Origin: Alphaproteobacteria bacterium
Lineage (GTDB): Bacteria > Pseudomonadota > Alphaproteobacteria > Caulobacterales > Hyphomonadaceae
Reading direction: 5' to 3'
Length of the DNA: 64,000 bases
Assembly: GCA_018830285.1 (NCBI GenBank)
Contig: JAHJSB010000002.1
Span: 1 to 64,000, forward strand
Shown here: positions 39,775-45,652 of the stretch, piece after piece
Position numbering within the stretch: position 1 is the stretch's first letter
Layout of the letters: every line of letters starts with the position of its first letter
Program-made: the position numbers and the translations under genes
The notes under the pieces: model-generated
Database searches by the model: none
Seen by the model: only the letters and a program-made list of their open reading frames with translations
What the model was told of the DNA's origin: nothing

Positions 39775-40320
39775 GGCGGATTCGCCAGCACGAAAGCCCG
39801 GCGCAGGGTACGCGGTCACTGTCGGCAAGACGGCGCAAAGATCGCTGACGATCCGGAACGTCCGGGCATCCGGTCGGATGGCCGGCACGGGGCGCAGGCG
39901 TCCGCCGCGGGCCTTTGGCCATGCGCAGGGCGTGCGGTTCCGGATTTCGGAAGGGGGGTGGCGCGGGTATGGGGCGCGGACGGAACGCGCCCGCAAATGC
40001 GTTGCCAACGGCCACGGAAAACGCGCGGGCGGTGCCGGGCGGGTTGATCGGGCGGTACGCGCCAGACCGACCGCCCATGGCGCACGCTCCGTTGGCGGCG
40101 CCTTGCGACCCATCAGGATCAGCAGGCAGCGCAGGGCATGTTCCAGCATGGCGAGACTCGCCGATGTGCCCCGCAACAGGCGCGTCCGGACCCGGCCCGG
40201 TGCCAGCCGCATCACGGCCTTCACATAGAGGTGCAGCGCCCGTGTCGCGGCGCGCATCAGAGGCCAGGCGCGAGCGACGCGGCGGCGGGTTTGTGAGGGA
40301 TCCGGAACATTTCGGGTCAT
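39688..40320 (-). CDS. uncertain hypothetical protein, possibly frameshifted
   Basis: An open frame of 210 residues on the minus strand fills most of the 744-nt gap between ubiA and copA. It begins MTRNVPDPSQTRRRVARAWP; the first ~70 codons (to LLILMGRKAPP) have good third-position GC and a helical pattern, as in a real gene. After that, codon choice weakens in this frame, while a second frame (SGAYRPINPPGTARAFSVAV onward) becomes better, so a frameshift is possible. The last 87 nt overlap ubiA. It could equally be chance in GC-rich DNA. Confidence 0.35.
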   Translation of the reverse strand: MTRNVPDPSQTRRRVARAWPLMRAATRALHLYVKAVMRLAPGRVRTRLLRGTSASLAMLEHALRCLLILMGRKAPPTERAPWAVGLARTARSTRPAPPARFPWPLATHLRARSVRAPYPRHPPSEIRNRTPCAWPKARGGRLRPVPAIRPDARTFRIVSDLCAVLPTVTAYPAPGFRAGESALFRLRRRHDDAFLFQRAQHIARHPGFRV

Positions 40321-40457
40321 GGCGCTTAGATAAGCCACAGACCTGTCACGGTCGGAGACGCGCGATGCGCTTTGCCGTGCCGGCAACAGGTCGGCAGAGG
40401 CAGTGGGGGGACAGGCCCGGCCTTGCAGGACAGGCGGGGGGCCATCATCGCCGCACT

Positions 40458-40485
40458 TGCATATACCCCCATAGGGTATTATATA
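40458..40485 (+). promoter_or_regulatory. copA promoter with CsoR-type operator
   Basis: TTGCAT (40458-40463) and TATATA (40480-40485) are spaced by 16 nt. The spacer is occupied by the dyad ATACCCCCATAGGGTAT (40463-40479). This G/C-run-flanked-by-AT palindrome is the classic target of CsoR/RcnR regulators (TAC-C4/5-...-G3/4-TA). CsoR is encoded as the third gene of the operon, so autorepression relieved by Cu(I) is expected. Confidence 0.8.
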
Positions 40486-40518
40486 AAGGCAGGACTCACC
40501 AAACGGAGCGAACGCACC

Positions 40519-42768
40519 ATGGATACGTCTTCACACGATCATACACATCACACACACAAGACAGCCGACTCGCCTGCGGCGGATGCCTGCTGCCACGGCG
40601 GCGCTGCGGCGAAGGCCGGCACGGAATATGACCATGTGCCGGAACATTATTCCGGCACCGTGTGGACCTGCCCGATGCACCCGCAGGTGCGCGAGACCTC
40701 GAACACTGGCTGTCCGATCTGCGGCATGTCGCTGGAACCGGAAACCGTGTCGCTGGACGAGGACACGAGCGAAATGGATGACATGACGCGCCGGTTCTGG
40801 ATCAGCACGGCGTTTGCCCTGCCCCTGTTTGTCTACGCGATGAGCGACATGATTCCGGGCCAGCCCCTGCACGGGATAGTCCCGCCTGGCGTGGCGCAAT
40901 GGATCCAGCTGGCGTTGGCCGCGCCGGTCGTGCTGTGGGGCGCAGCGCCCTTCTTCGTGCGCGGCTGGCGCTCGGTCAAAACCATGAACCCGAACATGTT
41001 CACGCTGATCGCGCTGGGCGTGGGCACGGCGTTCCTGTTCAGCCTGGTCGCAACTATCGCGCCGGGCCTGTTCCCCGACGACTTCCGGGACATGGATGGC
41101 AACGTCCACGTCTACTTCGAAGCCGCCGCTGTCATTGTGGCGCTCGTCCTGCTTGGGCAGGTGATGGAACTGCGCGCGCGCAGCGCCACGTCCGGCGCGA
41201 TCCGCGCCCTGTTGCAGCTGACGCCGCCGACGGCGCGGATCATCCGCGCGGATGGCAGCGAGGAAGATGTCGATCTCGACACGGTCAAATCCGGAGACCG
41301 CCTGCGCATCCGCCCCGGCGAGAAAGTGCCGGTGGACGGCGAGGTGGCCGAGGGCCATTCCTCCGTCGATGAATCCATGGTGACGGGCGAGCCCGTGCCG
41401 GTGGCGAAGGCGGTCGGCGATGCGGTCACCGGCGGCACGGTGAACACAACCGGCGCGCTGGTGATGACCGCAACGCGCGTGGGCGACGATACGGTTCTGG
41501 CGCAGATCGTGCGCATGGTGGCCGAGGCGCAGCGCTCGCGGGCGCCGATCCAGCGGCTGGCCGATATTGTGGCAGCCTGGTTCGTGCCAGCCGTCGTGGC
41601 ATCGTCCGTATTGACGTTCATCGTGTGGGCCCTGTTCGGGCCGGACCCGGCGCTGGCCTTTGCGCTGGTCAATGCCGTGGCCGTGCTGATCATAGCCTGC
41701 CCCTGTGCGCTTGGCCTCGCGACACCGATGTCGATCATGGTGGGCACAGGAAAGGGCGCGCAGAACGGCATCCTGATCCGCAATGCCGAAGCGCTGGAGA
41801 CGCTGGAGAAAGTGGACACTGTCGTCGTCGACAAGACCGGCACACTGACCGAAGGCAAGCCGAAACTGGTGACCGTGGAGCCCGCCGGGGGCTGGGACGA
41901 AACCGGGCTGCTGAAGCTTATCGCGGCCGTCGAAGCGGCGAGCGAGCACCCGCTGGCAGCCGCCATCGTGAGCGGCGCGGAAGCGCGCGGCATCAAGACG
42001 AGCGTGGCCCAGGACTTCGAGTCCGTCACGGGCGAAGGCGCTCAGGGTACGGTTGACGGCAAGTCGGTTGCCATCGGCAATGCGAAGATGATGCGCCGGG
42101 TCGGTGGGTTTGATGACGCATGGGGCGAGGCCGCCCAGTCATACAGGGAAGACGGCCAGACCGTGATGTTCGTGGCGGTCAATGGCAAGGCGGCAGGCCT
42201 GATCGGCGTCGCCGACCCGATCAAGGCGACCACGAAAGAAGCGATTGCGCGCCTGCACGCGCAGGGCCTGAAAGTGGTGATGCTGACTGGCGACAACGAG
42301 GCGACGGCGCGGGCCGTGGCCCGGCAGGTGGGCATTGATGACGTGCACGCCGACGTTTCGCCGGAGGACAAGAACCGGATCGTGCGTGCGCTGCAGGCGG
42401 GCGGCGCGGTGGTGGCGATGGCGGGAGACGGCATCAATGACGCCCCGGCGCTGGCACAGGCCGATGTCGGCATCGCGATGGGCACCGGCACCGACGTTGC
42501 CATGCAGAGCGCCGGCGTGACGCTGGTGAAGGGCGACATGCTGGGCATTGCCCGGGCGACCGCGCTGAGCCGCGCCACGATGCGCAATATCAGGCAGAAC
42601 CTGTTCTTCGCATTCATTTACAATACGCTGGGCGTGCCGCTGGCGGCAGGCGTGCTCTATCCCGTGTTCGGCCTGTTGCTGAGCCCGATGATTGCCGCCG
42701 CCGCGATGAGCCTGTCATCGGTTTCGGTGATCGGCAACGCGCTGCGCCTGCGCGCATTGAAGCTGTAA
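40519..42768 (+). CDS. copA: copper-exporting P1B-type ATPase
   Basis: A 749-residue Cu(I) exporter. The N-terminus is His-rich (HDHTHHTHK) with CCHGG. In place of the usual HMA domain it has the metal-binding module [20 protein letters not shown] at about residues 49-68. Membrane CPC motif C394-P-C396 ([11 protein letters not shown]), phosphorylation Asp438 in [11 protein letters not shown] locus SEHPLAAAI and hinge [14 protein letters not shown] identify a P1B-1 type pump. The stop and the next start overlap (TAATG). GGAG lies 11 bases before the ATG. It should export Cu(I) from the cytoplasm. Confidence 0.96.
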
Positions 42769-44078
42769 TGGGCACTTCATATGAAAAGAACAGCCTGACG
42801 CTTCCGGGCGCCGTGGCTATGGGAACAGGCGTGATGATTGGCGCGGGCATTTTTGCGCTGACGGGGCAGGTCGCCGAGCTGGCGGGAGCCCTGTTCCCGC
42901 TCGCCTTCCTGATGGCAGCGATCGTGTGCGGATTCAGTGCGTACTCGTACATCAAGGTGTCGAACAAGTATCCGTCGGCGGGCGGCATCGCGATGATCCT
43001 GAAGAAGGCCTATGGCCCGGGCATGGTGACCGGCGGGGCAGCCCTGCTGATGGCCTTTTCGATGATCATCAATGAGAGCCTCGTGGCGCGCACGTTTGGC
43101 ACTTATACATTGCAGCTGTTCGGAATCCAGGGCGGCATTCTCGTTCCCGTGCTGGCGCTCGGGCTGATTGTCGGCGCCTTCCTTGTGAATATCGCCGGCA
43201 ATGACGTGGTCGGATCGGTGTCGAAAGTGACTGCCGTGCTGAAGATTGGCGGCATCCTCGTGTTCGCGCTGGTGGCGCTGTGGGCGGCGGGATTTGCGTT
43301 CCAACCCGCTGCGAACGGCGTTGCCGAGACGGCATCGGCTGGCGGATTCCTTGCGGGCGTCGCGCTCGCCATCCTAGCCTACAAGGGCTTCACGACGATC
43401 ACCAATAGTGGCGACGAGGTGAAGGACCCGAAGAAGAATGTCGGCCGGGCGATCATGATCTCGCTGGCAATTTGCACGCTGATCTACCTGCTCGTCTGCT
43501 ATGCCGTCGGCTCGACCCTCAGCATCGAGGAAATCGTCAAGGCGAAGGATTATGCGCTGGCCGAGGCCGCGCGTCCCGCCGTCGGCGAATACGGTGTCTG
43601 GTTCACGGTGGCGATTGCCATCATCGCGACCGCCTCCGGCCTGCTGGCGAGCGTGTTCGCCGTGTCACGGATGCTGGCCATGCTTGTCGAGATGAAGCTG
43701 ATTCCGGAGCCGAAGCTCGGCCTGCCGGGTGACACGCAGACCCATACGCTGGTCTATACGGTGGCACTGGCGGGCCCGCTGGCCGCGTTTTTCGACCTGT
43801 CGCGCATCGCGTCGCTGGGCGCCATTTTCTACATCGTCATGGACATCATCATCCATTGGGGCGTCTACCGGCACCTGCGCGAGGATGTAGGCGCAAGCGC
43901 GCCAATACTGATCACCGCGATCGTTCTGGACGCTGTTGCGCTCGGCGCATTTCTGGTGATGAAATCGCAAAGTGATCCGGTCATTGTCGTGATCGCGGTG
44001 ACAGGCATGGCCGTGATCTTCGCCTTTGAAAAATTCTATCTATCAAGGGCCGGGGATACGGCCAAAACAGAGACTTGA
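42768..44078 (+). CDS. APC-family amino acid permease in the copper operon
   Basis: A 436-residue, twelve-helix secondary transporter. The first helix carries the unwound APC motif GVMIGAGIFALTGQ, followed by NKYPSAGGIAMILKKAYGPG and the helix-6 region AILAYKGFTTITNSGDEVKDPKKNVGRA. Family members exchange or import amino acids, amines or thiols. Its TAATG coupling to copA and its place before csoR mean it is made under copper stress. Import of cysteine or histidine, or export of a metal-chelating amino acid, are plausible but unproven. Confidence 0.9.
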   Translation: MGTSYEKNSLTLPGAVAMGTGVMIGAGIFALTGQVAELAGALFPLAFLMAAIVCGFSAYSYIKVSNKYPSAGGIAMILKKAYGPGMVTGGAALLMAFSMIINESLVARTFGTYTLQLFGIQGGILVPVLALGLIVGAFLVNIAGNDVVGSVSKVTAVLKIGGILVFALVALWAAGFAFQPAANGVAETASAGGFLAGVALAILAYKGFTTITNSGDEVKDPKKNVGRAIMISLAICTLIYLLVCYAVGSTLSIEEIVKAKDYALAEAARPAVGEYGVWFTVAIAIIATASGLLASVFAVSRMLAMLVEMKLIPEPKLGLPGDTQTHTLVYTVALAGPLAAFFDLSRIASLGAIFYIVMDIIIHWGVYRHLREDVGASAPILITAIVLDAVALGAFLVMKSQSDPVIVVIAVTGMAVIFAFEKFYLSRAGDTAKTET

Positions 44079-44096
44079 AGCCAGAGGAACCGCCAG

Positions 44097-44372
44097 ATGA
44101 AGACAGAGACACGAGACAAAGCCGCCAAACGTCTTGCCCGGATCGAGGGACAGGTGCGGGGCGTCGCCAAGATGGTGGGCGAGGACCGCTATTGCGTGGA
44201 CATCGTGCGGCAGGTGCAGGCGATCAAGGCGGCACTGACCGGACTCGAGGGACTGATTCTCGACGACCATATCGCGACCTGCGTCGAGCATGCGCTGGAA
44301 GGTGGCGATCTCAATGCGCGGCGGGAAAAGGTGGAAGAACTGGTCGCCGTGCTGGGCGGGCGAAAGAAGTAG
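44097..44372 (+). CDS. csoR: CsoR/RcnR-family copper-sensing repressor
   Basis: A 91-residue helical regulator (DUF156). Cu(I) ligands Cys33, His58 and Cys62 (RYCVDIV, DDHIATC) form the CsoR triad, which separates it from the RcnR nickel and FrmR aldehyde groups. N-terminal RLARIEGQVRGVAKM holds the DNA-contact residues. It should bind the operator upstream of copA as a tetramer and let go when it binds Cu(I). It is 18 nt from the permease gene. A short hairpin, CGGGCG/CGCCCG, lies just after the stop. Confidence 0.94.
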   Translation: MKTETRDKAAKRLARIEGQVRGVAKMVGEDRYCVDIVRQVQAIKAALTGLEGLILDDHIATCVEHALEGGDLNARREKVEELVAVLGGRKK

Positions 44373-44560
44373 GCTGGACGGGCGATGCGCTTCGCCCGCC
44401 GTAAGCTGCGTGCGTCGCGGTGCCGGACGCTTGATACGCATCTGAGTTGCTGCGCGCCGGTACTGAAAGCGAAGTTGACGAGAATTGTTCACTATTCTAG
44501 GAAAACAGCGTTCTCAGGCTCGTCTCAGTGCACTGGCATGAACACCAGGGAAGATGGACG

Positions 44561-45652
44561 ATGCTCGCAGCCAAGCACCCTCACGAGGCTGAACGCCTGG
44601 CTGCCCTGTACCGATATGACATACTCGACACGGACCGAGAGGCCGATTTCGACGATATCGTCGAGCTGGCTGCCGAACTGTGTGGCGCGAAGATTTCGGT
44701 CATCAACCTGATCGATACCGACCGCCAGTGGTTCAAGGCGGAGACCGGACTGGGCGTGCGCGAAACGCCGCTGGACACATCGATCTGTTCGCACGTTATC
44801 CTTGAGAATGATTTCGTCGAGATCACGGACACGCGCGCCGACAATCGCACGCAGGACAACCCGCTCTGCCTCGATGAGCCGGGCCTGCGCTTCTATGCTG
44901 GCGCGCTGCTGAAATCCCACGACGGTTTCCCGATCGGCACGCTCTGCGTCCTTCACGACGAGCCCTATGCGCTGAGCGCATTTCAGAAGAAGTCCCTTCG
45001 CACGCTGGCCAGGCTGGTCATGCGCGAACTGGACCTGCGAATGGCGCTTCGCGACCAGCAGGTGCTGCTGGGCGAAATGGATCACCGCGTGAAGAATTCG
45101 CTGCAATCGGTGAGCTCGCTGGTGCGGCTCTACCAGTCACGCGCCGGCGAGGAAAACCATGACGCATTCGACGCGGTATCCCGACGGGTCGATGCCATTT
45201 CCCTGCTGCACCAGGAGCTGCACCAGGCCGCAGAAATCGAGACCGTGCCCCTGGCGCGGTTCATTCCGCGCGTGATCGCGCTGTTGCAGGATTCAGCACC
45301 GGAAAACATCACGATCGAAGCCGACATCGACAAGATCAAGGTCGGATCGACCCATGCCTCGGCCATCGGCATTATTGTCAGCGAGTTCGTCGCCAATTCG
45401 ATCAAGCACGGCTTTGCCGACAATCGCGCGGGCACCATTTCGCTAAGCCTGCTGAACGGGGCGGACAGGCACGTGACCCTGACCTGCAGCGACAATGGCG
45501 CGGGCACAGGTTCGCCCACCCGGCCAACGAGCGCCGCCGAGGGGCTCGGGCACCGGCTGGTCGATGCGGCCGCCTCGCAGCTCGGCTCGAAAGTGACGCG
45601 CACGGCTACCGAAGACGGCTTTTCGCTAAGCCTGAAATTCGCCTTGGCCTGA
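44561..45652 (+). CDS. GAF-domain sensor histidine kinase (HisKA_2/HWE type)
   Basis: A 363-residue cytoplasmic kinase. A GAF domain covers about 20-160 (AERLAALYRYDILDTDREADFDD to LGTLCVLHDEPY), then a HisKA_2-type phospho-acceptor box EMDHRVKNSLQSVSSLVRLY with His175. The ATPase domain has SEFVANSIKHGF (N box) and DNGAGTG plus GLGHRLV. This kinase family is frequent in Alphaproteobacteria and often feeds the PhyR/EcfG general stress pathway. No response regulator is adjacent. The chosen ATG starts MLAAKHPHE; a GTG 11 codons upstream is an alternative. Confidence 0.9.
   Translation: MLAAKHPHEAERLAALYRYDILDTDREADFDDIVELAAELCGAKISVINLIDTDRQWFKAETGLGVRETPLDTSICSHVILENDFVEITDTRADNRTQDNPLCLDEPGLRFYAGALLKSHDGFPIGTLCVLHDEPYALSAFQKKSLRTLARLVMRELDLRMALRDQQVLLGEMDHRVKNSLQSVSSLVRLYQSRAGEENHDAFDAVSRRVDAISLLHQELHQAAEIETVPLARFIPRVIALLQDSAPENITIEADIDKIKVGSTHASAIGIIVSEFVANSIKHGFADNRAGTISLSLLNGADRHVTLTCSDNGAGTGSPTRPTSAAEGLGHRLVDAAASQLGSKVTRTATEDGFSLSLKFALA

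Follow-up and report, generated by a model that had tools for sequence, protein, structure and literature searches.

The window studied here, the first 64,000 nucleotides of contig JAHJSB010000002.1 (assembly GCA_018830285.1) from a marine alphaproteobacterium of the family Hyphomonadaceae, carries genes for a Cu(I)-exporting ATPase (copA), an APC permease and a copper-sensing repressor (csoR) in a row behind a predicted CsoR operator, and the permease is, as far as sequence can tell, a member of an APC subfamily of its own that accompanies copper-resistance genes. Since that subfamily recurs beside such genes in several phyla, bacterial copper tolerance probably includes it as a component so far overlooked, and the recurrence suggests that many bacteria combine copper export with taking up (or releasing) a particular small molecule. 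Descriptions of copper-resistance clusters usually name pumps, oxidases, chaperones and regulators. In the open-access PMC literature, so far as its text was available and with subscription journals mostly outside the search, a permease of this kind appears in copper clusters only as a label in a Psychrobacter figure legend (Fig. 5; PMC4754876) and as E. coli YbaT.

Copper genes around the permease subfamily

Among the closest 80 of at least 562 reported stretches with a related permease (several of which share contigs with the relatives described below), a CopA-type pump was found within about 6 kb in 57, where CopA in this and the following counts means similarity to CopA, so that some hits, such as those in L116 and L119 (38-39%) and L207 (33%), may be other P-type ATPases. 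CopA, a multicopper oxidase, CopB or an RND pump was present in 69 of the 80, and any of 14 recurrent neighbour families in 74 [among the 14: multicopper oxidase, 31 loci; RND pump, 24; DUF2231, 19; DUF302, 19; DUF411, 18; DUF5676, 15; CopB, 13; CusB, 12; DUF305, 11; MerR, 11; CsoR, 10]. These families were named after clustering and ten representatives were checked by Pfam; the CopA, CsoR, TVP38-like and ICMT-like families were named by similarity or by eye. For a cyanobacterial member (Oscillatoria, L096), the neighbours were limited to an RND pump and an ICMT-like gene. One further member (L094) lies on a contig labelled as the archaeon Methanoculleus, which may reflect contamination of the bin or transfer.

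Relatives in the same genus and order held 27 full-length family members, two short fragments (G025:C10 and G002:C10) being excluded. CopA was within 6 kb of the permease in 18 of them, in every such case on the same strand and within 900 bp, and a copper core gene (CopA, multicopper oxidase, CopB, CsoR or DUF411) was present in 23 of the 27, or in 24 when RND/CusB is counted. The G002 fragment (G002:C10:71865-71957) is a 31-residue remnant that shares 94% identity with the N-terminal end of the window's protein, possibly a lost copy; the two full-length copies in the same genome are only ~70% identical.

The subfamily is uncommon in evenly drawn genomes (17/385 in the class and 23/398 in the phylum; the two samples overlap and both include the window's own genome). 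These samples gave 42 distinct places with the window excluded, of which 40 were used, without a fragment (G260) and a gene interrupted by four stops (G720:C26); two part-genes at the two ends of one contig (L211 and L212) are both among the 40. A CopA match was seen in 30 of the 40 loci (28 at ≥45% identity) and a copper core gene in 33, whereas marker genes were seen beside none of 13 control APC paralogs (24-32% identity), which were hand-picked from the relatives' genomes, mostly as the highest-scoring matches in that identity range.

A subfamily member was found in 113 of 72,556 plasmid records, 53 of the 113 being predicted conjugative, and in all ten records hand-picked for taxonomic spread from 40 among the 113, annotated copper genes lay within 6 kb of the permease (in a Rhodococcus plasmid the sole copper neighbour was a four-helix-bundle copper-binding protein). 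The permease directly follows copA in two experimentally tractable strains, Ruegeria pomeroyi DSS-3 (SPO_RS21690) and Dinoroseobacter shibae (DSHI_RS19860). Annotated copper neighbours thus occur in at least five phyla (Pseudomonadota, Planctomycetota, Bacteroidota, Bacillota and Actinomycetota). The initial annotation had regarded an amino acid permease inside a copper unit as not usual, which these counts do not support, and a broader finding takes its place: the permease is a recurrent and subfamily-specific copper neighbour. Its proposed test, conservation of the permease beside copA in many genera, was positive across relatives, sampled genomes and plasmids, and the permease is therefore not confined to one strain.

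Fold and conserved residues of the permease

The permease matches PF13520 (AA_permease_2) at 102.3 bits against a cut-off of 27, and scores 112.4 bits against TIGR00909 (amino acid transporter 2A0306), below the curated cut-off of 556.8. Its predicted model (pLDDT 82.3, pTM 0.84) is closest among solved structures to MjApcT, or ApcT (MJ0609; PDB 3gi9/3gia; Z 49.4, rmsd 2.2 over 410 residues, 26% identity), which is also the best match in sequence; we know of no copper link for that protein. The K+ carrier KimA also resembles the model (Z 39.8, 13% identity), but the APC fold is so widely shared that no function is implied. The 17 family sequences placed in a tree clustered together (support 97/99) and were separated from YbaT, ApcT and the paralogs, with the bootstrap not settled and with YbaT and ApcT on long branches.

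With the window protein entered twice, the family alignment has 129 rows for 128 distinct members; 109 of its positions are at least 97% conserved, 23 of which are not shared with YbaT, ApcT or ten paralogs. Two lysines, K159 and K206, are invariant in the aligned family, K206 in all 128 distinct members. K159 lies in transmembrane helix (TM) 5 and aligns with ApcT K158, the residue mutated in 3gi8; a TM5 lysine is likewise present in GkApcT, a bacterial CAT homologue of the same fold (5oqt/6f34). K206 falls in the break of TM6, where the helices of the model stop at 205 and resume at 208, and its position is occupied by Ile234 in GkApcT, Ala in YbaT and Met in ApcT. In the available text on GkApcT, Ile234 is described as a pocket and inner-gate residue (PMC5803215). 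By a hand-read alignment, the other pocket positions also differ, with Ser98, Asn102, Thr209, Gly291 and Ser295 of the window permease at the places of GkApcT Glu115, Ala119, Asp237, Val317 and Met321, respectively (Asn at position 102 in 107/129 rows). Such a site reads as a roomy polar pocket with a fixed positive charge, which would favour a substrate bearing a carboxylate.

Six of the 23 family-specific invariant positions are methionines (M95, M99, M302, M305, M309 and M358). With 15 Met in 436 residues this is an excess (hypergeometric p ~4e-5), computed post hoc. From the alignment and the topology that we take to be usual for the fold, the six would lie in the cytoplasmic half of TM3 and TM8, and in TM10. 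Some members (L106, L109, L110, L111, L118, L131, L145 and L218) carry short His-bearing N-terminal tails such as MDHSQHGK or EGHKHGAD; the window permease has none.

The copA-permease-csoR operon and its operator

The features of the operon, which lies in a genome of 3.56 Mb in 65 contigs, are collected in Table 1. The stop codon of copA and the start codon of the permease share one base in a TAATG overlap (...TGTAATGGG), and csoR starts 18 bp 3' of the permease stop, preceded by AGAGGA; from this spacing and the common direction we infer that the three genes form one transcript.

Table 1. Features of the copper operon, in window positions, and channel genes at plasmid loci, in positions of the locus named.
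Feature	Positions	Strand	Description	Basis
Operon	40457-44372	+	promoter-like site, copA, APC permease, csoR	
Promoter-like site	40457-40485	+	TTGCAT (40457-40462), 17-bp spacer (40463-40479), TATATA (40480-40485)	read from sequence
CsoR-type operator (predicted)	40463-40479	+	ATACCC-CCATA-GGGTAT	consensus-core match, single exact genome copy, kept in relatives
copA	40519-42768	+	Cu(I)-exporting P1B ATPase, 749 aa	profile and motif matches
APC permease, copper-linked	42768-44078	+	436 aa	PF13520, ApcT-like predicted fold
csoR	44097-44372	+	copper-sensing repressor, 91 aa	PF02583, C33/H58/C62
Channel genes near permease	L244 818-1213; L246 2855-3739; L250 7326-7748; L251 4985-5989			

CopA scores 609.7 bits against TIGR01511 (P1B Cu-ATPase; cut-off 397) and has an N-terminal His-rich stretch, an HMBD (CPMHP/CPICGM) and a CPC at 394, together with DKTGT and SEHP; we take CPC, DKTGT and SEHP to be marks of a P1B Cu-ATPase. 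A second copper-type P1B ATPase is encoded elsewhere in the genome (G000:C3:155412-157085) and has no exact copy of the operator. CsoR, the sole PF02583 match in the genome (94.0 bits, cut-off 22.8), has an RLXR motif (RLAR at 12-15) and a Cys-X24-His-X3-Cys Cu(I) site (C33, H58 and C62), presumably spaced as in M. tuberculosis CsoR. Like the CsoR-/RicR-type copper regulons, the window thus has a CsoR with a C-H-C site and, by sequence and position, a type 2 operator (a predicted binding site) ahead of csoR's own operon, which includes a Cu ATPase; it differs from them in having a permease in the unit and in a protein that scores 80.6 bits against the RicR NCBIfam, below the cut-off of 175. 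A C-H-C site is the one named for CsoR sensors in the part of the literature available to us (PMC10141476). The reading of the locus as a copper operon with an intact copper sensor is supported by sequence, and the arrangement described initially, a dyad followed by copA, a TAATG-joined APC permease and csoR, is confirmed.

The Streptomyces CsoR consensus is reported to be best conserved at positions 3-8 and 14-19, two half-sites around a free 5-nt spacer (PMC3902906, from the text available), and the window dyad matches exactly those core half-sites, the consensus being that of Streptomyces. The exact dyad occurs once in the genome, with one more site at one mismatch, as against three sites per strand at up to one mismatch for a reversed control pattern; a single operon thus seems to be under CsoR here. 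In the window the dyad begins 56 bases ahead of copA, and in L033, L034, L036 and L040 ~62 to 68 bases ahead of it. In the orthologous loci L033, L034 and L036 the -35-like element and the dyad arms are kept while neighbouring bases differ, and the -10 is not clearly kept. A chance dyad was rejected on its single exact copy and its retention in relatives. The hexamers on either side are those of a weak sigma-70 promoter (by hand count, TTGCAT agrees with TTGACA at 3/6 bases and TATATA with TATAAT at 4/6), and a consensus promoter scan of 40200-44700 flagged nothing. The operator that had been placed between -35- and -10-like boxes stands on its match to the consensus, its rarity and its conservation, the boxes themselves being weak.

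Exact dyads were present in 30 of 161 scanned sequences (~1.95 Mb: the window, 27 relatives, 80 related loci, 40 sampled loci and 13 controls, with some duplicates and many close kin), and in 0/13 of the control loci. Within the 250 bp before copA, most loci have no ATACCC-type dyad; a scan of the whole stretches placed one farther upstream in several of them, as in L088, where it lies just before a DUF5676 gene and no csoR match was found within the fetched stretch. Eight closely related loci with the order copA-DUF411-permease (L049, L050 and L087-L092) have an exact CsoR-type dyad upstream of copA, again with no csoR match in the fetched stretch; a further dyad common to all eight, CCGCCC-N5-GGGCG, sits near position -68 relative to copA.

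Downstream of the operon, a gene resembling a GAF/histidine kinase (named by eye; window 44528-45652) starts ~150-190 bp after csoR on the same strand. A simple scan found no terminator between the two; its terminator-like matches were all inside copA or the permease.

Possible roles of the permease

The initial annotation had suggested that the permease could provide the cell with a copper-binding amino acid or thiol, or could export a chelate. We consider it very probable that the permease is dedicated to copper, and we lean, at slightly better than even confidence, towards a CsoR-repressed copper operon whose copper-linked permease probably imports an amino acid. Cu(I) would bind CsoR at C33/H58/C62, CsoR would leave the dyad in the promoter spacer, and copA, permease and csoR would then be made together. 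The permease would most likely be a proton-coupled importer acting through the ApcT-type TM5 lysine, and its cargo an amino acid, or a compound closely derived from one, whose side-chain carboxylate would face K206 in the pocket; glutamate is the first candidate, and a glutamate-type cargo is a tentative suggestion. Import may restore glutamate or glutathione where copper has poisoned iron-sulfur enzymes such as GOGAT, so that CopA would remove the metal while the permease supplies substrate or glutathione precursors. In the available text of a review, copper is reported to poison GOGAT and isopropylmalate isomerase (IPMI), and glutamate, glutamine or branched-chain supplements to aid growth in E. 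coli, the glutamine rescue of copper-stressed cells requiring YbaST (PMC10903455).

Several observations weigh against this account. Seven of the 40 sampled loci (L196, L197, L204, L221, L227, L230 and L234) have no copper core gene. Two of these, L227 and L234, are complete but short contigs, and L221 has one short flank; L196, L204 and L230, however, are fully flanked and still show no marker genes at all. Regulators vary, with csoR in 3/40 and a MerR-type gene in 11/40 sampled loci, and L082, L108 and L131 have the dyad on the downstream side of the permease, which is therefore not under it at these loci. Unlike ybaST, the subfamily has no glutaminase gene beside it in any of the 40 sampled or 27 relatives' loci. 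As for the pocket, its positions come from the sequence alignment and not from model geometry, and lysine 206 could act in coupling or packing instead of binding a side chain. In addition, proton coupling in GkApcT is assigned, in the available text, to Glu115 and not to the TM5 lysine (PMC5803215); the equivalent residue here is Ser98, so proton coupling is not assured.

An unlikely alternative, and the best of those considered, is a general helper in nutrition or stress, either a broad importer of neutral or branched-chain amino acids that bypasses the branched-chain synthesis damaged by copper or a transporter of stress islands without specificity for copper. In its favour are the damage that copper does to IPMI and the partial rescue by branched-chain amino acids (PMC10903455, in part), and also the amino-acid symporter activity of ApcT, to which the permease is closest among solved structures (PMC5803215, in part). 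The L230 locus, which has no copper genes, has KatG-, SOD- and NhaA-like ORFs (named by eye), which fits a stress island. Against it, K206 would be unexpected with a neutral substrate, and 33 of the 40 sampled loci are copper loci.

A little less probable still is direct handling of copper by the permease: Cu(I), or a complex of copper with a ligand such as a thiolate or amino-acid chelate, would pass through an inner vestibule lined by methionines, with a chelator brought in or the complex sent out. The six invariant methionines, the His-bearing tails of some members and the tight linkage to copper genes are what such a role would lead one to expect. Set against this, the fold and the TM1/TM6 motifs are of the amino-acid carrier type, the invariant pocket lysine would disfavour free Cu+, the window protein is without a His tail, and the methionine count is post hoc and made against 12 comparison sequences (10 paralogs, YbaT and ApcT). 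We give similarly low credence to a wider proposal, that this unnamed APC subfamily is a dedicated copper-tolerance carrier that has spread along with copper islands across at least five phyla, moving an anionic copper ligand or its Cu(I) complex by way of the invariant lysine and the methionine-lined vestibule; if true, this would add a novel mode of action for secondary carriers in resistance to metals.

The copper-linked importer has its nearest counterpart in E. coli, where glsA(ybaS)-ybaT-cueR beside copA likewise places an APC permease between copA and a copper regulator. E. coli ybaST is reported to be copper-induced and to rescue copper stress with glutamine (PMC10903455, PMC1526738 and PMC9628877), and, according to the available part of the review, is not directly controlled by CueR (PMC10903455). 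That locus has a glutaminase and CueR, whereas the window operon has CsoR and glutaminase accompanies the subfamily in 0/67 loci. A simple YbaT orthologue was rejected, with 31% identity, Ala in YbaT at the position of K206, separation in the tree (bootstrap not settled, long branches) and no glsA. Since identity is low, the pocket residue differs and glutaminase occurs only with YbaT, YbaT and the subfamily look like APC carriers recruited independently to copper loci, and such convergence, should the tree hold, argues for a physiological reason over accident.

That the permease came along by accident on mobile copper islands and plays no part in copper tolerance we regard as very improbable: its presence in 113 plasmid records, 53 of them predicted conjugative, and its patchy occurrence in the genus would suit such an origin, but the linkage holds in several phyla, in either gene order and with several different regulators, the copA and permease genes overlap here by one base, and a recent mobile insertion in the window lineage was rejected because both flanks are syntenic with relatives.

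Four of the ten plasmid loci inspected also have an ion- or potassium-channel gene close to the permease, immediately beside it in two (Table 1).

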